A stretch of DNA of 33,790 nucleotides from Deltaproteobacteria bacterium (lineage in GTDB: Bacteria; Myxococcota_A; Polyangia; Haliangiales; Haliangiaceae): the NCBI GenBank assembly GCA_019237945.1, contig JAFAOG010000410.1:1-33790 (forward strand). The letters are read 5' to 3'. The position numbers and the translations under genes were made by a program. This document shows positions 2 through 15,346 of this stretch, one piece after another. Positions within the stretch are counted from its first letter, which is position 1; every line of letters begins with the position of its first letter. The notes beneath the pieces are model-generated. The model did no database searches and was not told the origin of the DNA. It saw only the letters and a list, made by a program, of their open reading frames with translations.

Positions 2-703
2 GACAACCTGTCGATCACCGCCGATGGCTACTTCATCCGTATCCGCGATCGGATCGCGCTGACGAGCCAGTTCGCGAGCACCGACCCGACCGTCGCGCAG
101 ATCCTCGCGCCGTTCCCCGGCGTGTCGCAGGCGCAGTTCTTCGCGAACGCGGTCGACACCGACACCAGCGGCGCCGACGTCGTCGCCGACTACGCGCAGG
201 AGCTGGCGTCGGGCACGCTGACATTCACGGCGAAGGCGAACTTCTCGAAGACGGTCGTCACGCACGTCAACGTACCGTCGACGCTCGCGGCGCGCTTCGG
301 CAACGACCAGATGCTGCAGACGTTCTTCTTCGGCCGCGGCGCGAAGAACCGCCTCGAGGATCTGATCCCGCACGAGAAGGGCTTTCTCGCCGTGCGCTAC
401 GCGGCGAACGGCGTGTCGGCGCTGGTGCGTGCGAATTACTACGGCAAGGCCTACTTCAAGCCCGACAACGCCGCGAACGACGAGACGTTCGGGGCGAAGG
501 TCCTGTTCGACGCCGACCTCGGTTACTCGCCCAACAAGAACGTGTACTTCGGGATCGGCGCCGACAACCTGTTCGACACGTTCCCCGACGCGCAGACCAA
601 GGACGCGAACAAGAACTTCGGCCGCTTCCTGTACAGCCGCAACGTGTCGCAGTTCGGCATGAATGGTGGCTTCTATTACGGGAAGTTGCAGCTGACGTTC
701 TAG
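2..703 (+). CDS. TonB-dependent receptor, C-terminal part (5' truncated by window edge)
   Basis: Frame open from base 2 (DNLSITADGYFIRIRDRIALTSQF...); beta-barrel style alternation, NVYFGIGADNLFDTFPD and terminal aromatic ...GGFYYGKLQLTF* typical of TBDR C-termini. Confidence 0.85.
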   Translation, partial: DNLSITADGYFIRIRDRIALTSQFASTDPTVAQILAPFPGVSQAQFFANAVDTDTSGADVVADYAQELASGTLTFTAKANFSKTVVTHVNVPSTLAARFGNDQMLQTFFFGRGAKNRLEDLIPHEKGFLAVRYAANGVSALVRANYYGKAYFKPDNAANDETFGAKVLFDADLGYSPNKNVYFGIGADNLFDTFPDAQTKDANKNFGRFLYSRNVSQFGMNGGFYYGKLQLTF

Positions 704-709
704 TACAAT
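704..709 (+). promoter_or_regulatory. -10 hexamer TACAAT, 6 nt before GTG 716
   Basis: TACAAT-gggaga-GTG, directly after TAG stop 701-703. Confidence 0.6.
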
Positions 710-715
710 GGGAGA

Positions 716-2782
716 GTGAAGCCGGCGACGGAGCCCGTGGCGCCCGACACGTTCGGGCCGTACGAGGTCTACGAACGCCTGGGCATGGGCGGCATGGCGC
801 AGGTCCATCGCGCGAAGAAGCGCGGGCCGGCCGGTTTCGAGCGCTCGGTCGCGCTCAAGCGAATGCTCTCGCACCTCGCCGAGGACAGCTCGTTCGTCGA
901 GTCGTTCATCCGCGAGGCGAAGGTCGTCTCGCTGCTCGTGCACCCGAACATCGCGCAGGTCTACGACTTCGGTCGCATCGGCGGCATCTATTACATCGCG
1001 ATGGAGCTCGTGCCGGGCTTCGACCTGCGCAAGCTGCTCCGCTACGCGAACCGCGCGAACGAGCCGATTCCGCTGCCCGTCGTGCTGTCGATCCTCGGCG
1101 AGCTGTGCGACGCGCTCGAGTACGCGCACACGTGCAAGGACGAGCAAGGCACGCGGCTCAACATCGTCCATCGCGACATCTCGCCGTCGAACATGATCAT
1201 CGCGGCGACCGGTCACCTCAAGGTGATCGACTTCGGCATCGCAAAGGCGTCGGCGCGCCAGCTCCACACCGAGAGCGGTCAGGTCAAAGGCAAGCTCGGC
1301 TACATGTCGCCGGAAGCCGCGCTCGGCATCGCGAGCGGTCCCGTCAGCGACGTGTTCTCGATGGGCGTCGTGGCGTGGGAGCTCGTCACGGCATCGCCGC
1401 TGTTCTCGGCGCGCACCGACTTCGAGACGATGCGGAAGATCCGCGAGCAGGACGTCGCGCCGCCATCGCGTCACAACCCGAGCTCGCCGCCGGAGCTCGA
1501 TCGCCTCGTGCTCGCCGCGCTCGAGCGCGATCCGAAGCACCGCCTGCCGAGCGCGTCCGCGTTCCGGCAGGGCCTCGACGAAATCGCCGCGAAGTACGGC
1601 ATCCACGTCTCGGCGCGCGCGGTCGCCGAGTGGATCCAGCAGTTCCTCCAGCCCGAGGACTTCGTCTCGCGGTCGAGCGGCCGCACGCCGCCGCCGGAGT
1701 CGTCGACCGCGATCCTGCGCCCGTCGGCGAAGCAGCGCCTGCAGCGCTCGGTCGACGAGATCGCGCTCGCGACGGAGATCTGGGGCGAGGACGCGCAGAC
1801 CGTCGGCTCCGCGCCGCCGGCCGGCCCCGACTTCTCCGTCGACATCTCAGCGGGCGCGCAAGTCCCGACGCTCTCCGGTCTCGCGCTGCCCGCCGCCGCC
1901 GATGTTCGGTTCTCGCCGTCGACCGCGCCGGGCCTCGCCGACCTCCAGCTCACCGCGCCGGGCCGTCCACGCAGCTCGCCGATGCCGCAGGGCACGCCCG
2001 CGCATCACACGCCGCCGGTCTCCGCGCCGAGCTACGCGCCGCCACCGGAGGCGGAGCCGAAGAAGAAGGGCTTTCTCGTCGTCGGCGTCCTCGCATTCGT
2101 CGCGGCCGCCGGTGGCGGCGTGCTGATCCTCAAGTCGATGAAGCATCCGCCGCCCGAGGCGCCGCCCCCGACCGGCTCCGCCGCGGTCGCGATGGCGACG
2201 GTGACCGTCGACGCCGCGATGCCCGCGGTCGAGCCGCAGCACGATCCGAACGACGAGCTCAAGCCCGACGATCACGAGACGCCGGAACCGACGCCGACCG
2301 AAACGCACAAGCCGACGACGCCGACGACGCGGCCGAAGCATCACGGCACGACGACGAAGCACGTCACCGCCGCCGTTCCGGCCGATGCCGCGGTCGCGGA
2401 GCCGCCACCGCCGCCTCCGCCACCCGAGGTCAAGCCCGATGCGGCGGTCGAGGTGAAGAAGCCCGACGTCACGCCGGTGGTCGAGACGCCGAAGGCGCCG
2501 GCGCGCACGCCGGTCGTCGCCGCATCGGCGGTGACCAAGCTCTCCGGTGATCTACCGACGATCCGCGGCGACTCCGATGGCGACGCGCTCGTGAAGATGT
2601 GCATCGACGACGGTGGTGCCGTGACGTCGGTCAAGGTCGTCCGCGCGACCGCGCAGATGCCATCGGATCTGACGCGCGCGCTTCAGGGCTGGCGCTACAA
2701 GCCCTACGCAAACAAGGACGGCAAGGCGCAGCCGGTGTGCTTCGCGCTGTCACTCCGCGTGGAAGTGAAGAGCGGCGACTGA
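716..2782 (+). CDS. Ser/Thr protein kinase with one TM helix, Pro-rich linker and TonB-like C-terminal domain
   Basis: Kinase motifs GMGGMAQV, VALKRM, HRDISPSN, DFGIAK, SPE; TM FLVVGVLAFVAAAGGGVLIL; Pro/Thr-rich linker; C-term GAVTSVKVVRAT..LTRALQGWRYKPYANKDGKAQPVCFALSLRVEV resembles TonB C-terminal fold. GTG start. Confidence 0.88.
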   Translation: MKPATEPVAPDTFGPYEVYERLGMGGMAQVHRAKKRGPAGFERSVALKRMLSHLAEDSSFVESFIREAKVVSLLVHPNIAQVYDFGRIGGIYYIAMELVPGFDLRKLLRYANRANEPIPLPVVLSILGELCDALEYAHTCKDEQGTRLNIVHRDISPSNMIIAATGHLKVIDFGIAKASARQLHTESGQVKGKLGYMSPEAALGIASGPVSDVFSMGVVAWELVTASPLFSARTDFETMRKIREQDVAPPSRHNPSSPPELDRLVLAALERDPKHRLPSASAFRQGLDEIAAKYGIHVSARAVAEWIQQFLQPEDFVSRSSGRTPPPESSTAILRPSAKQRLQRSVDEIALATEIWGEDAQTVGSAPPAGPDFSVDISAGAQVPTLSGLALPAAADVRFSPSTAPGLADLQLTAPGRPRSSPMPQGTPAHHTPPVSAPSYAPPPEAEPKKKGFLVVGVLAFVAAAGGGVLILKSMKHPPPEAPPPTGSAAVAMATVTVDAAMPAVEPQHDPNDELKPDDHETPEPTPTETHKPTTPTTRPKHHGTTTKHVTAAVPADAAVAEPPPPPPPPEVKPDAAVEVKKPDVTPVVETPKAPARTPVVAASAVTKLSGDLPTIRGDSDGDALVKMCIDDGGAVTSVKVVRATAQMPSDLTRALQGWRYKPYANKDGKAQPVCFALSLRVEVKSGD

Positions 2783-2914: not shown

Positions 2915-3346
2915 TTACTTCAGGCGGATCGGATACTCGAGCTCGCTCTTCGCATCGGCGGCCGGGAATGCCCAGCGCCGCGCGCAGTCCGACAGGCAGC
3001 TGACGGCAGCGTCGGGCGCGTCGCCCGCGATCGCGAGGTCGGCGACCTTGCCGGTCGGCTCGATCGAGAACTTGAGGACGGCAGTTCCGGCGACGCGCTG
3101 CGAAGGCGGCAGGCGATCCCAGCAGTACGCGACCTCTTCGCCGCGCGCCTTGACGACCGCGGCGACCTGCGCGAGCGACAGCATCTTCGGCTTCGCGGTC
3201 TCGCTGTCCTTCGGCAGCTGCTTCTTGTGCTCGCGCTGCGGCAGGTCGTACGCCTGGCCGAGCTTGAGGTTGACGGGGCCCTGGTCGGCCGCCGCGGGGG
3301 CGACCAGCGCCAGGAGGACGGCGGCAGCGAGGATGGGCTTGGACAT
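2915..3346 (-). CDS. Secreted protein with AgmX/PglI C-terminal (TonB-like) type domain
   Basis: MSKPILAAAVLLALVAPAAADQ signal peptide; VAYCWDRLPPSQRVAGTAVLKFSIEPTGKVADLAIAGDAPDAAVSCLSDCARRWAFPA pattern. Confidence 0.7.
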   Translation of the reverse strand: MSKPILAAAVLLALVAPAAADQGPVNLKLGQAYDLPQREHKKQLPKDSETAKPKMLSLAQVAAVVKARGEEVAYCWDRLPPSQRVAGTAVLKFSIEPTGKVADLAIAGDAPDAAVSCLSDCARRWAFPAADAKSELEYPIRLK

Positions 3347-3468
3347 GCCGGCCCTAAGAGCACCCGATGTGCCACGCGCGATCGCGAGGCGCTGCGCGGA
3401 CATGCGCGAACGCTGATGTCAGGCGTCCCTCGGGACAGTCGTTTCCGGGTGGCGGCCGGGGTTGCCGG

Positions 3469-4421: not shown

Positions 4422-6092
4422 ATGGTCATGTGCCTCACGATGTCGATCCCCGAGCACATGCGCTGGTGCCTCACCGCGCCCGTGGCGACCACCGTCCTCG
4501 TCGGTGAATCGCTCGAAGTTCACGCGAATGATGCGTTTGCTCCGTTCATCGGGCCGGCGCGCCACGCAGCCGCGCTCGGGCGTCCTGCGCGTGAAGCGTT
4601 TGCCGACCTGTGGCCTGTGCTCGAGCCGCTCGTGGTGAGCGCCCCGTGCGTGGCGAATGCGGTGAGGCTCGTCTTCGACCGTGCGGTCGCGAGCGAGGAA
4701 ATCTACGCGACGCTGATCGTCATGAAGCTCGACGGCGGGATCGCGATCAACTGGCTCGAGACGACGCAGGACGTCGTCGAGCGCCGCCGACTCGAGACGC
4801 TGCGCGCGCTTGCCGCGACGTCGGTGGTCGGCCGTACGGTCGAGGAGACGCGCGACGCGGTGCTCCGTGTGGTGCGCGCGAACGCCGGCATTGGCTCGGC
4901 GTCGTTCGCACCCGACGGAACGCTCGTCGTCGAGCCGAGCCCCCATCGGCCCAGCGATGAGGCCTACCGCGCGTTTCTGCGCGACGTCGCCCGCATCGGT
5001 GAGGATCTCGTCGCCCGCGCCGCGCACGCGACGGCCCACGCGCGCGCCGAGGATGACTTCCTCAGCATGCTCGCCCACGAGCTGCGCAATCCTCTCGCTC
5101 CGGTCCTGACGACGCTCGACGTGATGCGCGTGCGCGGCCAGACCGACGAGCTCGCGGCGCTCGAACGCCCGATGCGCCACCTCAACCAGCTGCTCGACGA
5201 CCTGCTCGAGTACTCGCGAATCGCGCGCGGCGCGGTGACGCTCAGGCGCGAGCGCGTCGAGCTGGCGGATGTCGTGCAGCGTGCCCTCGAGATGTCGGGC
5301 GGCTTCGCGGATCGCGTGTACGTCGCGGGGCCGCGTGTCGGCGTGCAGGTGGTCGCGGATGTCGATCGGCTCGCGAACGCGATCTCGCACCTGATCGTCA
5401 ACGCCGCGCAGCACGGCACGCCCGACTCACGCGTCAGCATCGACGCGACGCGCACGGTCGGGCGCGTGCAGCTCTCCGTGCGCAACGAGGGCAAGATCCC
5501 CGACGAGGTCGCGGCGCGTCTGTTCGAAGCGTTCGTGCAGGAGCCGCAGGGACTCGACCGTCCGCGCGGCGGGCTGGGCCTCGGGCTCGCGATCACCCGC
5601 TCGCTCGTCGAGATGCACGGCGGCACGATCCGCGCGAGCACGAGCACGGCGGCAACCGAGATCGTGATCGACCTGCCGTCGGAGCAGACGGCTGTCCTGC
5701 CGCAGCCGAAGGCGGCGCACACGCGCACGCGCAAGCGCGTGCTGATCGTCGAGGACAACGACGACACCGCCCGTGCGCTCAAGACCGCGCTCGAGACGCT
5801 CGGCTACGAGGTCGCGATCGCGCACGATGGCCCGGTCGCGCTGACCGTCGCGCGCACGTTCCGGCCGGAGGTCGCGCTGCTCGACATCGGACTCCCCGTG
5901 ATGGACGGCTACGAGCTCGCGAACCGCCTGCGCGCGATGAACATCTCGGCGAAGCAGCTCCACGTCGTCGCGGTCACCGCGTACGGCGCCGAGTCGTACC
6001 GGCAGAAATCGGCCGACGCGGGGTTCGCGGACCACCTCGTCAAGCCGGTCGATCTCGCGAAGCTCGAGCGCGTCGTCGAAGATCTGAGCTAG
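4422..6092 (+). CDS. Soluble hybrid histidine kinase (PAS-like sensor, HisKA, HATPase, C-terminal receiver)
   Basis: H-box FLSMLAHELRNPLAPVLT, N/G boxes HLIVNAAQHG, GGLGLGLAI, receiver VLIVEDNDDTARAL...LLDIGLPVMDGYELA...HLVKPV; no TM. Confidence 0.9.
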   Translation: MVMCLTMSIPEHMRWCLTAPVATTVLVGESLEVHANDAFAPFIGPARHAAALGRPAREAFADLWPVLEPLVVSAPCVANAVRLVFDRAVASEEIYATLIVMKLDGGIAINWLETTQDVVERRRLETLRALAATSVVGRTVEETRDAVLRVVRANAGIGSASFAPDGTLVVEPSPHRPSDEAYRAFLRDVARIGEDLVARAAHATAHARAEDDFLSMLAHELRNPLAPVLTTLDVMRVRGQTDELAALERPMRHLNQLLDDLLEYSRIARGAVTLRRERVELADVVQRALEMSGGFADRVYVAGPRVGVQVVADVDRLANAISHLIVNAAQHGTPDSRVSIDATRTVGRVQLSVRNEGKIPDEVAARLFEAFVQEPQGLDRPRGGLGLGLAITRSLVEMHGGTIRASTSTAATEIVIDLPSEQTAVLPQPKAAHTRTRKRVLIVEDNDDTARALKTALETLGYEVAIAHDGPVALTVARTFRPEVALLDIGLPVMDGYELANRLRAMNISAKQLHVVAVTAYGAESYRQKSADAGFADHLVKPVDLAKLERVVEDLS

Positions 6093-6095
6093 CGC

Positions 6096-6197
6096 TCAGC
6101 CCCAGGCGTGGCGCAGGAACAGCACCATCACGACGGCAAGGACGATCGCGATCACGACCGTGTGGAACAAGTAATTCTGGGGAAGTTGGCCACTCAC
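6096..6197 (-). CDS. Small single-TM protein (33 aa), candidate
   Basis: GTG start; VSGQLPQNYLFHTVVIAIVLAVVMVLFLRHAWG*; hydrophobic helix followed by R/H. Confidence 0.4.
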   Translation of the reverse strand: MSGQLPQNYLFHTVVIAIVLAVVMVLFLRHAWG

Positions 6198-6246
6198 GGG
6201 GCGGATTGTTACCACGCGGCACGGGTCTTGAACCACTGGGGATCCG

Positions 6247-6741
6247 ATGTTGCCTGAAGGTCTCGATCCGACGGCCGAAGCGGAAGCAGACGTGCGCGAA
6301 ACCGAACCGGATCGCGCGACGATGACCAGGGCGCTGCGGGACCTCGAGGCCGCCAAGGCGCGCGTCGAGCGCGATGCCCTGCGCGCCGCCGACGAGCTGC
6401 GCGGCAAGCTGGTCCTCGACCTGATCCCGGTGCTCGACAACCTCGATCGCACGATCGCGGCCGCGACCGCACACGGCGATGCGCCTGCGGTGGTCGACGG
6501 CGTGCGCCTGGTGCGCTCGCAGATGGAGCAGCTGCTCGTTCGCTACGGCGTCGAGCGCATCGATGCCAAGCACCAGCCGTTCGATCCGAACCTGCACGAG
6601 GCGCTCTCCGTCGTCCCGGTCTCGCATCCGTCGGCGCACGGCGTCGTCGTCGATCAGATCGAGCCGGGCTATCGCTTCGGCGATCGGCTGCTGCGGCCGG
6701 CGAAGGTCGTCGTCGGTCGACTCTCGCCTCGCCTCCATTGA
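6247..6741 (+). CDS. grpE: GrpE nucleotide exchange factor
   Basis: DLIPVLDNLDRTI, GVERIDAKHQPFDPNLHEALSVVPV, GYRFGDRLLRPAKVVVG. Confidence 0.88.
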   Translation: MLPEGLDPTAEAEADVRETEPDRATMTRALRDLEAAKARVERDALRAADELRGKLVLDLIPVLDNLDRTIAAATAHGDAPAVVDGVRLVRSQMEQLLVRYGVERIDAKHQPFDPNLHEALSVVPVSHPSAHGVVVDQIEPGYRFGDRLLRPAKVVVGRLSPRLH

Positions 6742-6767
6742 CGTCGTAAAACGCCCCGCGCTAGCGT
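6738..6767 (+). promoter_or_regulatory. sigma70-like promoter TTGACG-N18-TAGCGT, 6 nt before ATG 6774
   Basis: TTGACG 6738-6743, TAGCGT 6762-6767, spacer ggcgaa. Confidence 0.7.
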
Positions 6768-6773
6768 GGCGAA

Positions 6774-8339
6774 ATGCGCAAGACGAGGGTTCTGTTGGTC
6801 GCGGGCGTCGCGCTCGCATGGTCGTCGACGGTCTTTGCTGGCGTGCCGGCGTGGTGCAAGGGCTACGACAGCGGCGAAGGCGAGTACGGCGTGTTTCACT
6901 ATCCGTCCGGAGACGGCGACGATCGGTCGAGCATCGAGGATGTCGTCAAGTGGTCGTGCTCGACCAAGGTCAAGGATCCGAAGAATGCGACCGCGGCGAG
7001 CGCGGGGCTCGCGGACATGACCAAGCGTCTCTACATGAACGACGCCGACTGGAGCGATGCGGTCGACTATGTCAAGGAGCACGGCGCCCAGCACACGCTT
7101 TCGGACATCGAGCTGAGCGCGAACACGCTCGCCGCGCTGACGCCGATGGACCAGTACCGCGCGATCAAGGAGCCGCCCGATTCGGCGCACATGTCGAATC
7201 ACTACCTCGCGGACTCGATGGACGCGTTTCTCACCGAGACCGGACGCATGGCGTACGTCGAGACGTGCCTTGGCAGGGGCGGGGAGATCGACCCGATCCA
7301 GTGGGCGATCTGCGCCGGTGACGCGACGAAGCTCGATCCGAACAAGGTCGCCGCCGAGCTGCGCACGGACACCGCGCACAAGAACTGGTGGCGCACCGCG
7401 CTCCACATCAAGCTCGCCGAGGTGATGGATCACGTCAAGGACGCGACCGAGCAGGCGAAGAAGCTCGTCAAGAAGGACGACGCGTACGGCAAGCTGTTCG
7501 ATAACGCCGCGAAGGGCCGCGGCGAGTGGAGCAAGCTCGCGGCGAGCCAGAAGGACGCGCTCGATCTGCTCGCGCAGCTCGACTCCGCCGTCTACTTCCA
7601 CTCGAAGAAGCAGTTCGCGGGATGCGAGGACAAGGCGTTCAAGCTCGTGGCGGACGCGGCGTCGAAGATCCCGGCGAGCTCGTACAAGGGCTTCCGCGAC
7701 GAGCACGACGACCCGTACGGTGGCGTCGCGGCGAAGGCGGGCCCGATCTTCGCGAGCGATCCGGCCATGAACCTCGCGGGGACGGCGCTCGCGATGTGCC
7801 AGCCCGAGGTGACGACGGCCCAGTATCTCGCGTCGTTCGTCGACAACATGCCGGGCTTCCGCGGGCCGCGGAACATGGGCTTCCAGACGATCTTCACGCA
7901 GAAGTTCGAGCTCGACGACACGACGAAGGAGCTCCACATGGCGAGGCCGGGCGACAAGCCGTTCCACGTGCCGGGCAGCCCGACGGGGAGCCGCACGTTC
8001 ATCGTCGCGTCGCTCAAGCCCGACGGTGACAAGATCAAGGTGACTTCGCCGAAGTCGTCCTACGTGAGCGACGACTGCGTGAAGTGGCACGAGACGAACA
8101 AGATCGTCGACTTCGATACGGCGGGGCGACCCGTGTACCAGACGATCTGCGACAAGACCGGCTCGGTGAAGCACGACACGACGCCCGATGACTTCTCGGT
8201 CACCGCGCGCACCGGCAAGTGGCTCAAGCCCGGGTTGATGTTCTCCGCGGTGTGGGGCGAGAACCCCGACGTGCTGTTCGTGTGGGCGAGCAAGACGGCG
8301 AAGCAGCCGTCGATCGTGCTCGGCGGCAGCGTCAAGTAG
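6774..8339 (+). CDS. Large exported protein of unknown function
   Basis: Signal peptide MRKTRVLLVAGVALAWSSTVFAG; 521 aa, no domain recognised. Confidence 0.75.
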   Translation: MRKTRVLLVAGVALAWSSTVFAGVPAWCKGYDSGEGEYGVFHYPSGDGDDRSSIEDVVKWSCSTKVKDPKNATAASAGLADMTKRLYMNDADWSDAVDYVKEHGAQHTLSDIELSANTLAALTPMDQYRAIKEPPDSAHMSNHYLADSMDAFLTETGRMAYVETCLGRGGEIDPIQWAICAGDATKLDPNKVAAELRTDTAHKNWWRTALHIKLAEVMDHVKDATEQAKKLVKKDDAYGKLFDNAAKGRGEWSKLAASQKDALDLLAQLDSAVYFHSKKQFAGCEDKAFKLVADAASKIPASSYKGFRDEHDDPYGGVAAKAGPIFASDPAMNLAGTALAMCQPEVTTAQYLASFVDNMPGFRGPRNMGFQTIFTQKFELDDTTKELHMARPGDKPFHVPGSPTGSRTFIVASLKPDGDKIKVTSPKSSYVSDDCVKWHETNKIVDFDTAGRPVYQTICDKTGSVKHDTTPDDFSVTARTGKWLKPGLMFSAVWGENPDVLFVWASKTAKQPSIVLGGSVK

Positions 8340-11300
8340 TCACGGCGCGAGGCCGGGCGCGAGCGCATCGAACGCACGCGGCGGATTGACGATCCCGAGC
8401 TCGCGCGCGCCCCTGATCGCGGACGTGACGGCATCGCCGTCGCCCGCGAGCACACCGCGCTGATGGCGCGCCGCGAGCGAGTGCAGCTCCATGCCGCCGA
8501 CGTGCGCGGCGATCTCGGCGGTCGCCAGCGCGTCGAGCGTGCCCTGCGTGTCGCCGGCCTGCCGCGCGAGCGCCGCGTTGGCGAGGTGCGCGAGCCCCTT
8601 CGCGAACGGCACGACCGAGAGGCGCTTGCTCCACGCGCGGACCTCGTCCCATTCGCCGGCGCTGATCGCGGCGCGCATCCGGATGTCGCCGAGCGTGACG
8701 CGCACCGGCTCGAGGTCGAGCATCCGGCCGTGCGTCAGCGCGCGCCAGTGCGTGCGGAGCAGGGCGAGACACTCGCGGCCGCGCAGCTCGTACGCCTCGA
8801 TGGTGGCGAGCGCGACGATCTCGCGGAGGCGCAGCAAGTCGAAGCGATCGCGCGGCCAGTCGGCCATCACCTCGGCGATGCGGTCGCGCGCGCGCTGGGC
8901 GTCGTCGGAGGCAAGCACGCCATTGATCGCGCTGCCGATCGCGGAGTGCATGATCGCGTAGCGTTCGCCGGTCGCTTCGCCGGCGCGCGCGAGCGCTTCA
9001 CAGCGACGCGCAACCTCGCCCCAGTCGCCGGTCCAGGACAGCGACCAGATCGAGAAGATCTCGCCGGTGCGCTCCTCCCACGCGACGCCGGCGCAGTGCT
9101 CGCGGAAGATCGCGAGCGCGCGATCGCAGTGATCGATGCCCTTGCGGAACATGCCCCATTGCGTCGTACACACGCCGAGCGCGGTCTCGGCGAACGCGAC
9201 CATCAACGGGTCGCCGAGCTCTGCCGCGATCGCAGTCGCGGCCTCGATGATCGGCTCCGCGCGTCGCCGTGTACGCGAGCCCCACGCCGACACGAAGCAC
9301 GCCTCGAGCGACAGGGCGCGGCAGACGCGACGCGGGTCGCCGGAGTCGAGCGCGAACCGCGTGCTGCGCGACTGGAACAGCGCGCCGGAGATCGCGTCGA
9401 CCATCGCGAGACCGGTCGACAGCGAGTAGCAGGCATCGGAGCGGGCCGCGAGCTCGGCATCGAGGTCGCCGCGGCGAGGCACGAGACCGCGCATGCGGAG
9501 GCGCGCGCGCTCGACGAGCAGGGCGGCGATCGCCGTCACGGGCGAGTGGCCGGCGCGGTAGCCGATCGCGCTCGCGACCTTGTCGTACAGCTCCATGCCC
9601 TCGGCGACGTCGCCGCAGCGCAGGAAGTTCTCGGCGGCGCTGCGCTCGAGGTCGAGGCGCTCCTTGCCATCGGCCGTCGCGGCGGCATCGCGATAGGCGA
9701 TCGCGGCGCGCTTGGCGCGGCCGGATCCGGCGAGCGCGTCCGCATAGGCGTGCTGCAGCGTCGCGCGGGTCGGCTTCGCGAGGTCGAGGGCGAGCACGGC
9801 CTCGCAGACATCGGCGGCGCGCGAGAACGCGAGCGCGTGACGTGCGGAGGCGACGAGCCGGAGCGCCTCGTCGGCGGCGCGCTCGGCCTCGCCGGCCCAT
9901 GCCCAGTGCAGCGCGCGGCGCTCGGGCTGCGTGTCGGGAATCGTCTCGGCGAGGCGCGCATGCGTGCGGCGAAGCGACGCGGGGTCCGCGAGCGCGAGCA
10001 CGGCCTCGGCGACCTGCGCGTGGAACGGCTCGACGTGGTCGGTCGCGCGCAGGCCGGTGATCGTGATCATCCGCTGATCGAGGAGCTCGCGCAGATCGTC
10101 GACGAGCGCGAACCACTCGCGACCGAGCACGCTCGAGAGCACGTCGAGCCGGACCGGTGTCGCGGCCGCGCCGAGGACGCCGAGCAGGTCGCGCAGATCG
10201 CCGGGCAGCGCCTCGACGCGCTCGCGGAGCGTTCGCGGCAGCTCGTTCGCGCTCGACGACGCCATCAGCTCGAGCAGCAGGGGATGGCCGGCGGCCTCGG
10301 AGGCGATCTTGTCGGCGCGCTCGGCGTCGAGACCGAGCAGCTGACCGAGCGTGCGCGCGTCGGCCGCCGAGAGTGGCTCGAGCGGCATCATCGCGAGATC
10401 GAGCTGGTGCGCCGAGAGCTGCGCGAGCCAGCCGGCCGTGCTCTCGGTCGTCGCCTCGGTCGTGCGCAGGCCGAGCACGAGGGCGAGCGGCGGTGGGCGC
10501 GGTGGCTCGACGAGCTTTGCGAACAGCGCGAGGCTGTCGGGGGTCGCCCACTGCACGTCGTCGACGATCACGACGATGCTCGCGTGCTTCGCGATCCGGA
10601 TCAGCAGCTCGCGAAGCGCGATGATCGCGCGGCGCTCGAGCTCGCCCGCCGGTACGCTGGACGTCGTCGTCACCGGCAGCACGCGCGCGAACACCGGGAA
10701 CAGGCGCGCGATCGCCTCGGCGTCGTCGGGGAGCAGCCTCTCCGCCTCGCCGCGCGGCAGCGCCGAGAGGTGGCGCGTGATGCCGTCGAGCAGCGACTCC
10801 CAGGCATTGAGACGCAGGTGCTCGCGCACGCGGCAGCGCCCGAAGCTCACGAAGCTGCCGCCGTCGCGAGACGCCTGCGCGACGCGCGACAACAGACGCG
10901 TCTTTCCGATGCCACTCGGACCGAGCACGACGCGCACGTGCGGGGCCTCGCGCGCACCGTCCGCCGCACGCAGCAGCGCCTTCAATTCCTGCTCGCGCCC
11001 GACAAATGCGCGCGTCGCGCGCGGCAGCTTCGGCTCGCTCGTCCGCGTGGCGGCGCGCAGCCGCTCGGCGACCTCGAGCGCGCTCGGCCTCTCCTCGGGA
11101 TCGCGCGCGAGCAGCGCCATGCATAGCCGGTCGAGATCCTCGGGGACTTCCGGGAACAGCGCGGCCGGCGCGATCGGATCGCCGAGCAGCTTCTCCGCGA
11201 TCACCTTCGACACCGGCCCGACGAACGGCGGCCGCCCGACGAGCGCGTGATACAGCACCGCCCCGAGAGCGTAGAGGTCGGCGGCGGTCGTGACGATCGC

Positions 11301-11930
11301 GCTCTGCGTCTGCTCGGGCGCCATGTACTCGACCGTGCCGGCCATCAGACCCGAGTCCTCGAGGTCGTCGGTCGCCTCGGCGAGGCCGAGATCGAGCAAC
11401 ACGACGCGTCCGTCGCGCATGCGGATGTTCGACGGCTTGACGTCGCGGTGCACGATGCCCGCCGCGTGCAGCGCCGCGAGGCCCTCCGCGAGCTGCGCGA
11501 ACGCACTCTTGAGCTTGTCGACGTCGAACGCGGGCTCGCTCGGCGTCTCGCCGTCCCACCGGCGCTCGCTCGTCTCGTCCCGGAAGTCCTTGCCGAGCGG
11601 CGTGGTCGGTCGATCGCTGCGATGGACGCGCGGGCGCACCGTGACGTAGCCGACGAGGTCATCGCCCTCGACGAGCTCCATCGAGAAGAACCAGCGATGC
11701 GCGTGCTCGAACAGCTCGCCAAGCCGCACGAGGTTCGCGTGGCGCACGTCGGCCGCGACGCGGAACTCGTGCTTGAGCTTCTCGATCGCGCCGGCGTCGG
11801 CGTCGTGCAGCACCTTCAGCGCGACGCGCGTATCGAGCTCGCGGTCGAGCGCTTCATACACCTTTCCCATCCCGCCCGCGCCGAGCTCGCGGACCACCAC
11901 GAACCGCCCCGGTACGTCCGGCGACGCCAT
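8340..11930 (-). CDS. PknK-like Ser/Thr kinase fused to AAA/STAND-type ATPase and TPR-like helical region
   Basis: GAGGMGKVYEALD, VALKVL, HRDVKPSN, DLGLAEA, APEQ; AFVGREQELKALL, VLGPSGIGKTRLL (Walker A), IVVIVDDVQWA (Walker B); long alpha-helical Ala/Arg-rich C-term. Confidence 0.9.
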   Translation of the reverse strand: MASPDVPGRFVVVRELGAGGMGKVYEALDRELDTRVALKVLHDADAGAIEKLKHEFRVAADVRHANLVRLGELFEHAHRWFFSMELVEGDDLVGYVTVRPRVHRSDRPTTPLGKDFRDETSERRWDGETPSEPAFDVDKLKSAFAQLAEGLAALHAAGIVHRDVKPSNIRMRDGRVVLLDLGLAEATDDLEDSGLMAGTVEYMAPEQTQSAIVTTAADLYALGAVLYHALVGRPPFVGPVSKVIAEKLLGDPIAPAALFPEVPEDLDRLCMALLARDPEERPSALEVAERLRAATRTSEPKLPRATRAFVGREQELKALLRAADGAREAPHVRVVLGPSGIGKTRLLSRVAQASRDGGSFVSFGRCRVREHLRLNAWESLLDGITRHLSALPRGEAERLLPDDAEAIARLFPVFARVLPVTTTSSVPAGELERRAIIALRELLIRIAKHASIVVIVDDVQWATPDSLALFAKLVEPPRPPPLALVLGLRTTEATTESTAGWLAQLSAHQLDLAMMPLEPLSAADARTLGQLLGLDAERADKIASEAAGHPLLLELMASSSANELPRTLRERVEALPGDLRDLLGVLGAAATPVRLDVLSSVLGREWFALVDDLRELLDQRMITITGLRATDHVEPFHAQVAEAVLALADPASLRRTHARLAETIPDTQPERRALHWAWAGEAERAADEALRLVASARHALAFSRAADVCEAVLALDLAKPTRATLQHAYADALAGSGRAKRAAIAYRDAAATADGKERLDLERSAAENFLRCGDVAEGMELYDKVASAIGYRAGHSPVTAIAALLVERARLRMRGLVPRRGDLDAELAARSDACYSLSTGLAMVDAISGALFQSRSTRFALDSGDPRRVCRALSLEACFVSAWGSRTRRRAEPIIEAATAIAAELGDPLMVAFAETALGVCTTQWGMFRKGIDHCDRALAIFREHCAGVAWEERTGEIFSIWSLSWTGDWGEVARRCEALARAGEATGERYAIMHSAIGSAINGVLASDDAQRARDRIAEVMADWPRDRFDLLRLREIVALATIEAYELRGRECLALLRTHWRALTHGRMLDLEPVRVTLGDIRMRAAISAGEWDEVRAWSKRLSVVPFAKGLAHLANAALARQAGDTQGTLDALATAEIAAHVGGMELHSLAARHQRGVLAGDGDAVTSAIRGARELGIVNPPRAFDALAPGLAP

Positions 11931-12708: not shown

Positions 12709-13824
12709 GTGCGCATCGCTGTCCTCTGCGCTGTCGCGGCCTGCGCGACACCCGCGCCGTCCCCGATCCACACCTTTGGCGCCGGCGCTCTCGATCGCGT
12801 CACCGCGACCGCGTTCGACCGCGCGGTCAACCTCTACATCGCAGGCTGGTTCGAAAACACCGTCGATGCCGGCTGCGGACCGGTCGCGGGCCACAGCTAC
12901 CTCGACTCGCTCGTCGCGAGCTACGCGCCCGACGGCACGTGCCGGTGGTCGTTCGGCTACGGCGGTCGCAGCGGAGACGACGCGAATGCGATCGCGGTCG
13001 ACGACGCCGGCCACGTCTGGGTCGCCGGCAGCTTCATGTTCGACGTCGACGTCGGCGCGTTTCACCTCCACGAGCAAGGCGTCGGCGACATCGTGCTCGT
13101 CGAGGCCGACGCAGCGACCGGCCATGTCGACAACGCGGTCGTGCTCGCCACGCCCGGCGCCGACGAAGCGACCGCGCTCGCGCTCGATGCCAAGGGCGAG
13201 CCGATCGTGTGCGGCGTGCTCGACTCGCAGCTGTTCCTCGCCGCGCTCGGCACGCACGGCGACGTTCGCTGGCAGCGCACGCTCGGCACCGACAACACGG
13301 TCTACGCGTGCAGTGGCCTCGCCGTCGACGAGACCGGCACGATCGCGATCGCGCACGAGGCGATCGACTTCGTCGCGCACACCTGCACGTCGCAGGTCGA
13401 CAGCTTCACCGCCGCGGGCGTGCACGGCTTCACGTTCCCGGCCTCCGGCTGCGCGAGCGCACTCGCGTACGGCCCCGGCGGCGCGATCTATCTCGCGACG
13501 GATCTCGGCATCACGGCGCTCGCGCACGACGGCACGATCGCGTGGGACCTCGCAACGCCGTCGCTCGCGTCGATCGCGGTCACCGGCGACACGGTGTGGG
13601 GCGGCGGCCACGTGCTCGAGCAGCTGACGCTCGACGGCCAGCTCCGCCAGCTCGACCCGCTCGCCGACACGACGACCGTCAGCGCGCTCGCGGCGGGCCC
13701 CGACGGTCAGATTGCCGCGGGCGGCCAGTTCCAGTACCAGATCGACCTCGCGGGAGAGCACGTCGACACGACTTCTCCGAGTGATGGCTTTGCCGCGATC
13801 CTGCCGCTACAGTCTGCTCGATGA
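12709..13824 (+). CDS. Putative lipoprotein, beta-propeller / delta-60-like repeat protein
   Basis: MRIAVLCAVAACATP lipobox-like; repeated ANAIAVDDAGHVWVAGSF, ATALALDAKGEPIVCG, SALAAGPDGQIAAGGQF motifs. Confidence 0.75.
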   Translation: MRIAVLCAVAACATPAPSPIHTFGAGALDRVTATAFDRAVNLYIAGWFENTVDAGCGPVAGHSYLDSLVASYAPDGTCRWSFGYGGRSGDDANAIAVDDAGHVWVAGSFMFDVDVGAFHLHEQGVGDIVLVEADAATGHVDNAVVLATPGADEATALALDAKGEPIVCGVLDSQLFLAALGTHGDVRWQRTLGTDNTVYACSGLAVDETGTIAIAHEAIDFVAHTCTSQVDSFTAAGVHGFTFPASGCASALAYGPGGAIYLATDLGITALAHDGTIAWDLATPSLASIAVTGDTVWGGGHVLEQLTLDGQLRQLDPLADTTTVSALAAGPDGQIAAGGQFQYQIDLAGEHVDTTSPSDGFAAILPLQSAR

Positions 13825-14321
13825 GGACCCTGGCGCTGCTCGTGCTTGCCGCGACAGCGCCCGCCTACGCCGACGAACCGCCGCGCCAGACTCCCTTCGA
13901 TCAGGGCAAGGTCTCGGTCAGCGCCGGTGGCGGTACGACCTCGACGCTCAACCATCACTACATCGTGATGGGCGGCGGCGTTGGTTACTACGTGCTCGAC
14001 GGTGTCGAGCTGTCGCTGCACGGCCTCTACGAGTTCGGCAACGGCCCGAGCATCAGCCTGCTGTCGCCCCAGCTGCGGTACGTCGCGCAGCCGCTCGTCG
14101 GCGTGTGGCCGGTGATCCCGTACGTCGGCGCGTTCTACGACCACTGGTTCGTCGGCGACAACCTCGGCGACGTGGACAGCATCGGCGCGCGCGCAGGTGG
14201 CCTCTTGATCAACGGCCGGATCGTGGTGGGGCTGGGCGTCGTGTACGAGCAGGTCGTGTCGAGCTGTGCCTCGGACTGCTCGTCCTGGTACCCAGACATC
14301 ACGATCGGGTTCTCGTTTTGA
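13821..14321 (+). CDS. Outer-membrane beta-barrel-like exported protein
   Basis: Signal peptide; alternating strands ending in ...DITIGFSF*; ATGA overlap with upstream gene. Confidence 0.65.
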   Translation: MRTLALLVLAATAPAYADEPPRQTPFDQGKVSVSAGGGTTSTLNHHYIVMGGGVGYYVLDGVELSLHGLYEFGNGPSISLLSPQLRYVAQPLVGVWPVIPYVGAFYDHWFVGDNLGDVDSIGARAGGLLINGRIVVGLGVVYEQVVSSCASDCSSWYPDITIGFSF

Positions 14322-15346
14322 AGCGCGACGATCCAGATCAGACGAAGGTCGCGCTGATCGATCCGATGATCGGCGTCGTGATCGCGGGCCGCTACCGGCT
14401 CGAGCTGAAGATCGCATCCGGCGGGTTCGGCGCGATCTATCGCGCGCTCGACGTGTTCGACGATCGCGATGTCGCGTTGAAGCTGCTGCATCCGCGGCTC
14501 GCGATGGATGGCGCCGTGATCGCGCGGTTCCGGCGCGAGGGCGCCGCGCTGTCCAAGCTGAACAATCCACACACCGTGCACGCGTTCGAGGTCGGCGAGA
14601 CGCCCGACGGCACGCTGTACATCGCGATGGAGTTGCTCGAGGGCGAGAGCCTCTACGATCACGTGCGCCAGCTCGGGCCGATCGCGTGGCGGCGGATGGC
14701 GCAGATCGCGCGCCAGGTGTGCGATGCGCTCGGCGAGGCGCACGCGCTCGGCATCATCCATCGCGATCTCAAGCCGGCGAACATCCACCTCGAGGCCGAT
14801 GACTTCGTGAAGGTGCTCGACTTCGGCATCGCGAAGATCGTCCACGGCGGCGAGCTCGAGAATGCCGACCTGACGCACGCCGGTCAGATGATCGGCACGT
14901 TCGACTACATGCCGCCCGAGCAGATGGTCGGCGGCGAGCTCTCCGAGCAGAGCGACATCTTCACGCTCGGCATCGTCATGTACGAGATGATCACCGGGCA
15001 GCTGCCGTTCGGTGCGGCCGCGACCGCATCGGCGATGCTCGCGGCGCTCGTCACGAAGACGCCGAAGGCGCCGGGCGCGCTCGCCGACTGCCCGCCCGAG
15101 CTCGACCGCATCATCCTCAGATGCCTGGCGCGCAAGCCCGAGGATCGCTACCGCGATAGCCACGCGCTCGCCGACGATCTCGATATGCTGCTCGGCAACG
15201 CCGACGCGGGCGAGGAGCAGACGCTCGTCAAGCGCATCACGACGAGCCGGATGCAGGCCCAGCTCAACGACGATCCGACGGTCGTGAAGAAGTTTGTTCA
15301 GGTCGGCACGACGCCTGGCGTGGGCCCGCCGAAGAAGAAGCGCTAG
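14318..15346 (+). CDS. Soluble Ser/Thr protein kinase
   Basis: GGFGAIYRALD, VALKLLHP, HRDLKPANI, DFGIAK, MPPEQ; probable TTG start at 14318 (TTGA overlap) or ATG further in. Confidence 0.88.
   Translation: MKRDDPDQTKVALIDPMIGVVIAGRYRLELKIASGGFGAIYRALDVFDDRDVALKLLHPRLAMDGAVIARFRREGAALSKLNNPHTVHAFEVGETPDGTLYIAMELLEGESLYDHVRQLGPIAWRRMAQIARQVCDALGEAHALGIIHRDLKPANIHLEADDFVKVLDFGIAKIVHGGELENADLTHAGQMIGTFDYMPPEQMVGGELSEQSDIFTLGIVMYEMITGQLPFGAAATASAMLAALVTKTPKAPGALADCPPELDRIILRCLARKPEDRYRDSHALADDLDMLLGNADAGEEQTLVKRITTSRMQAQLNDDPTVVKKFVQVGTTPGVGPPKKKR

Follow-up and report, generated by a model that had tools for sequence, protein, structure and literature searches.

A Hanks-type kinase with a TonB-like tail behind a TonB-dependent receptor gene: a candidate trans-envelope signaling pair

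Can an outer-membrane receptor signal to the cytoplasm through a kinase that carries the contact domain of TonB? The question is raised by two adjacent genes at the start of the window, by which is meant the whole stretch of DNA analyzed (33,790 nt, the entire contig G000:C350 of an 8.1-Mb assembly in 632 contigs). Known signaling by TonB-dependent receptors relies on a special N-terminal domain and on the proteolysis of an anti-sigma factor, and FecA/FecIR and FoxA/FoxR are examples of such cell-surface signaling. The first-pass annotation of the window proposed that the receptor contacts a transmembrane kinase directly, with TonB-type contact used for phospho-signaling rather than, or as well as, energization. 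The features of the pair are the following:

2..703, forward strand: 3' portion of the gene for a TonB-dependent receptor, coding for the last 233 barrel residues (PF00593, E 1e-8)
716..2782, forward strand: Hanks-type Ser/Thr kinase, transmembrane, with a TonB-like C-terminal tail (688 aa, GTG start)
761..1561, forward strand: kinase domain, residues 16-282 (PF00069, E 7e-38)
2075..2131, forward strand: single transmembrane (TM) helix, residues 454-472, mean hydropathy 2.58, with no His and no SxxxH motif
2132..2494, forward strand: periplasmic Pro/Thr-rich linker of about 125 residues (24% Pro, 14% Thr)
2495..2779, forward strand: TonB-CTD-like tail, β-β-α-β with a WRYKPY core, residues about 598-688
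2600-2602 and 2738-2740: invariant tail cysteines Cys629 and Cys675

The kinase had been described as a Hanks kinase with one TM helix, a Pro/Thr-rich linker and a TonB-C-like tail, and this layout is borne out by Pfam, hydropathy and AlphaFold. In the AlphaFold model of the whole protein, the folded kinase (about residues 42-310) and the folded β-β-α-β tail are joined by disordered sequence that is interrupted by a short helix at 455-465; the second disordered part covers 466-595. The Hanks catalytic core (VAIK-type Lys, Glu, HRD, Asn and DFG) is present in the sequence, and K48, E67, HRD152-154, N159 and DFG172-174 are invariant across nine kinase orthologues. The periplasmic linker cannot be aligned among these nine, in which it spans 125-253 residues with 12-34% Pro; several orthologues have one or more PEGA domains inserted in it, and the window kinase has none. 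The cytoplasmic linker of most receptor-linked kinases contains a 'LATEIWGED'-like motif (residues 351-359 of the window kinase, positions 1766-1792), whose counterpart in a sister clade of kinases is 'VEMVWG'. The linker surrounding it is variable, and the motif is a possible docking or regulatory site.

Pfam and NCBIfam give the tail about 19-20 bits (18.6-19.3 in Pfam), which is below the cut-offs (24.6 and 27.1), and these matches alone were dropped as proof of a TonB tail. A profile built from the aligned tails of 11 kinases matches TonB C-terminal domains (CTDs) in the PDB, including those of E. coli TonB and pectobacterial FusB, at E-values of 4e-5 to 6e-4. The AlphaFold (AF2) model made from the tail alignment is a β-β-α-β fold (pLDDT 86.9, pTM 0.75), and its 16 best PDB matches in Foldseek consist entirely of TonB CTDs, which include receptor-bound TonB in 6i97 (FoxA; TM 0.66-0.69) and 2gsk (BtuB). 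On profile and model together, homology of the kinase tail to the TonB CTD is established, and the TonB fold assigned to it at first sight holds. Cys629 lies in the first and Cys675 in the last strand of the tail sheet; they are not found in ordinary TonB and form a candidate disulfide. A protein with the usual TonB layout, encoded elsewhere in the genome as part of an unusual motor set, has a CTD of the same Cys-pair subtype (C-D ... WRYKPY ... VC):

C435 (L100), 4892-7946, reverse strand: Cys-pair TonB, then a MotA/TolQ/ExbB gene and three ExbD-like matches

The kinase tail may derive from a TonB of this kind. In addition, TonB-dependent receptors or receptor-sized proteins encoded on C401 (L103), C243 (L105) and C239 (L104) carry an N-terminal TonB_C domain behind a signal peptide, a layout that resembles the myxochelin receptor model MxcH (NF038079); this genome thus puts TonB CTDs to use in several ways.

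The contig start falls inside the receptor gene, so its 5' part is cut off and the plug and TonB box cannot be read in the window. The remaining reading frame, which ends with a stop at 703, codes for a fragment with 59-73% identity to the C-termini of complete receptors (914-979 aa) in eight relatives. All eight complete orthologues contain barrel and plug (PF00593, PF07715) and CarboxypepD_reg; the STN domain is absent from all eight, with CarboxypepD_reg instead. The orthologous receptors share the mostly invariant stretch LNETVVVVGSRTPRTN, which aligns with BtuB from BtuB residue 6. Receptor residue 134, within '(N)ETVVVVGSR', is aligned to this residue and lies on the BtuB TonB box, DTLVVTA; E134 and V137-T143 are invariant. 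By this alignment, the TonB box that a direct contact would use is present in the orthologous receptors, behind an N-terminal extension. In Myxococcus, the Oar protein likewise carries a TonB box, which matters for function, and an N-terminal extension; a two-hybrid test showed binding of the N-terminal portion of Oar to several TonB CTDs (PMC6434023).

A second contig of the same assembly, C247 (L192; 1-2095, reverse strand), ends in the receptor stretch found at the window start and codes for residues 4-700 of such a receptor, which is 72% like the receptor of G001. Joining C247 to the window start was rejected because the 47-base overlap has five differences, which points to the same gene in another strain or to a second copy. 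A contig search with the receptor alignment returned at least 80 relatives (35-51%) in Bacteroidota, Gemmatimonadota, Proteobacteria and others, and in none of the relatives listed does a kinase or tail of this kind lie within 6 kb; this search missed the known pairs and has no bearing on rarity.

The kinase gene does start 12 bp behind the receptor gene, as first noted. Kinases number about 150 in this genome and receptor candidates a few tens, and by our estimate chance alone would place about one receptor and kinase side by side; a lone adjacency therefore means little, and what counts is nine pairs in about eight settings. Eight other species of the same genus, an uncultured group that probably lives in soil, have a complete receptor followed by an orthologous tailed kinase, so that with the window there are nine pairs, all in the same order with gaps of 3-24 bp. 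Among the 56 genomes searched, receptor relatives at E<1e-80 are found in exactly the nine that have the receptor-linked kinase clade; the genus has seven further members without a receptor relative at this threshold, and some of these genomes are fairly complete. Flanking genes were compared at all loci within the stretches fetched and are common only to the close relatives G003 and G005, and no third gene is conserved alongside the pair at the nine loci. This is not due simply to poor synteny, since the sister kinases keep the same neighbors in 15-19 loci. The persistence of the pair amid changing surroundings, which agrees with the check on co-conservation set by the first-pass annotation, thus shows that the two genes are inherited, or moved, as a unit, and it is this conservation, not the adjacency itself, that exceeds chance. 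The distances of receptor and kinase are correlated over and above a species marker (partial r 0.57), a real signal but mostly one of shared ancestry. In G015 there is also a kinase of the receptor-linked clade that has a GMC oxidoreductase and no receptor beside it, and a more distantly related receptor (49%) that has no kinase with it.

The next gene downstream of the window kinase (2915-3403, reverse strand) codes for a small secreted-looking protein with an AgmX/PglI C-terminal domain (myxo_SS_tail; 39.9 bits against a cut-off of 40), a distant relative of TonB_C. This gene has relatives elsewhere in the genus, none shown at the equivalent locus, and an empty-site search gave no clear orthologue. 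The window also contains two more Ser/Thr kinases (8340-11930, reverse strand; 13712-15346, forward strand), one of them followed by an AAA/STAND-type ATPase domain.

We propose, with a probability of roughly 0.55, that the two genes form a trans-envelope module in which the tail contacts the TonB box of the receptor and couples the state of the receptor to Ser/Thr phosphorylation. Beyond the anatomy we infer every step, including the contact of tail and box, the direction of the signal, the control of the kinase and its targets. The receptor, with its CarboxypepD_reg extension, TonB box, plug and barrel, would bind a ligand in the outer membrane. The kinase would span the inner membrane and expose its catalytic domain to the cytoplasm, and its flexible Pro-rich arm (125-253 residues) would bring the tail to the outer membrane. 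Receptor occupancy would alter the exposure of the TonB box, and the tail would most likely pair with the exposed box by β-strand addition, as TonB does. Occupancy would thereby shift the clustering or activity of the kinase and lead to Ser/Thr phosphorylation of cytoplasmic targets, with import still driven by the ordinary ExbB/ExbD/TonB sets of the genome. The TonB box also serves ordinary TonB, which speaks against a dedicated contact.

The sister kinases bear on how specific such a contact could be. The kinase tree separates a receptor-linked clade (support 99/98) from a sister clade, clade B (98/99), which has the same tail and is found throughout the family. None of about 23 sister-clade loci examined has a receptor neighbor; the locus instead contains a conserved aminotransferase-family (PF00155) gene and a gene of the NAD-dependent epimerase family. 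The tail alone thus does not imply a partner next door, and from its distribution the tail predates the gene pairing, or at least is not bound to it. Within the class (241 genomes), strong tail matches on kinase-sized frames occur only in this family, with frames judged by length and kinase content checked for the fetched loci. The direct contact proposed at first is weakened by a sister family that has the same tail and no receptor neighbor. The tail could be a general periplasmic or outer-membrane anchor, which holds peptidoglycan, a lipoprotein or any receptor in trans, and the receptor could be merely co-expressed or co-selected with the kinase and not touched by it; for example, the kinase might regulate receptor expression or uptake genes. 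Such an anchor would suit the tailed clade B kinases in their aminotransferase/epimerase locus, and it would also suit a genome with 37 matches to TonB_C-like domains, many of them on unrelated proteins. It accounts less well for a receptor that occurs only with this clade and has a cognate TonB box, or for genes that stay paired at 3-24 bp while their surroundings change, and we regard it as the main rival, at well below even odds.

For motor binding, TonB and TolA use a motif of the SHLS type within the TM helix (PMC12204202). The TM-core His of this motif (SxxxH/SHLS) is absent in all nine kinases, and a His is present in the TM helix of five TonB-type proteins from the same genome (C239, C46, C54, C435 and C619). 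ExbD matches number 13 in the genome, several with TonB genes alongside, and none on the window contig. With neither a TM His nor an ExbD on the contig, the tail would most likely read the TonB box or compete for it rather than pull on it. Judged by the sequence of its motor end, then, the kinase is no TonB. The earlier description of a kinase that replaces the short N-terminus of TonB fits the layout and fails at the Ser/Thr-xxx-His motor motif, and because the TM helix has no such motif, a role in energization alongside signaling is unlikely. Alternatively, signaling could go inside-out or act as a brake, in which case the tail would occupy the TonB box and block or gate energization by canonical TonB, with its availability set by the phosphorylation state of the kinase. 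The anatomy would be the same, and a TonB fold without a motor motif is what a competitor would have, but a mere plug would not need a conserved catalytic kinase domain, which makes a brake improbable. Least credible is a TonB variant whose tail powers the receptor through ExbB/ExbD while the kinase domain regulates import, since the TonB-like layout and tail, and a Cys-pair CTD shared with the C435 TonB beside its MotA/TolQ/ExbB gene and three ExbD matches, are offset by the motor-binding His that is missing in nine of nine kinases and kept in other TonB-type proteins, by the lack of ExbD at the locus and by a 450-residue cytoplasmic part ahead of the TM helix.

The module of receptor and kinase is therefore preferred for this locus. 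For the class of receptor-linked kinases, we suggest tentatively, at slightly below even odds, that a motor-uncoupled TonB CTD could act as a sensor that reads the TonB box of the co-encoded receptor. The same tentative suggestion includes direct phospho-signaling from the outer membrane to the cytoplasm without sigma/anti-sigma proteolysis. Genes for FecR-like anti-sigma or ECF sigma factors are not conserved with the pair at the nine loci, and the genes next downstream of the kinase in the window include no sigma or anti-sigma factor. If the suggestion is true, a kinase bearing the TonB contact domain would read an outer-membrane receptor by a different and simpler route, and the TonB box would be a signaling site besides an energy-coupling site. 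It would also give a testable answer to what many transmembrane kinases of myxobacterium-like genomes sense, and the interest of the pair rests on the ease of testing it.

The design has a precedent in the Agl-Glt gliding machinery of Myxococcus xanthus, in which GltG (PglI) and GltJ (AgmX) have been proposed to contact the TonB-box β-barrels GltA/B (PMC3169522, PMC5349195). GltG and GltJ share with the kinase a cytoplasmic signaling domain (FHA in GltG), a single TM helix, a periplasmic arm and a C-terminal TonB_C domain, and a GltJ-like protein (Zn ribbon, GYF and TonB_C) is encoded in the same genome on C250. The present pair differs in having a catalytic Hanks kinase as its cytoplasmic domain, in place of FHA or Zn-ribbon/GYF, and a complete TonB-dependent receptor as the product of the partner gene. 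The locus has no motor of the AglRQS/ExbBD type, and the TM helix has no motor motif. The first-pass claim of an undescribed signaling system thus remains plausible for the system itself and does not extend to its design principle; a fusion of kinase and TonB CTD was not found described in the literature searched, which is weak evidence.

In FecA/FecR-type systems, a TonB-dependent receptor signals to an inner-membrane protein through its STN domain (PMC11637429). The resemblance lies in an outer-membrane TonB-dependent receptor with a single-pass inner-membrane partner encoded alongside. The receptor here lacks STN, a kinase that bears a TonB CTD takes the place of the anti-sigma factor as its partner, and the proposed contact would be made through the TonB box itself. 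Compared with TonB, the kinase has a homologous C-terminal domain of the same fold and a Pro-rich periplasmic linker that is about as long or longer, but a kinase stands in place of the short N-terminus, the motor-binding motif is missing and the tail has an invariant Cys pair. Finally, the order of kinase, TM helix and extracytoplasmic sensor is that of the PASTA/PEGA transmembrane Hanks kinases (PknB-like), and PEGA domains are found in several orthologues. Unlike in those kinases, the sensor here would be a TonB CTD, and the gene lies directly behind that of a receptor.
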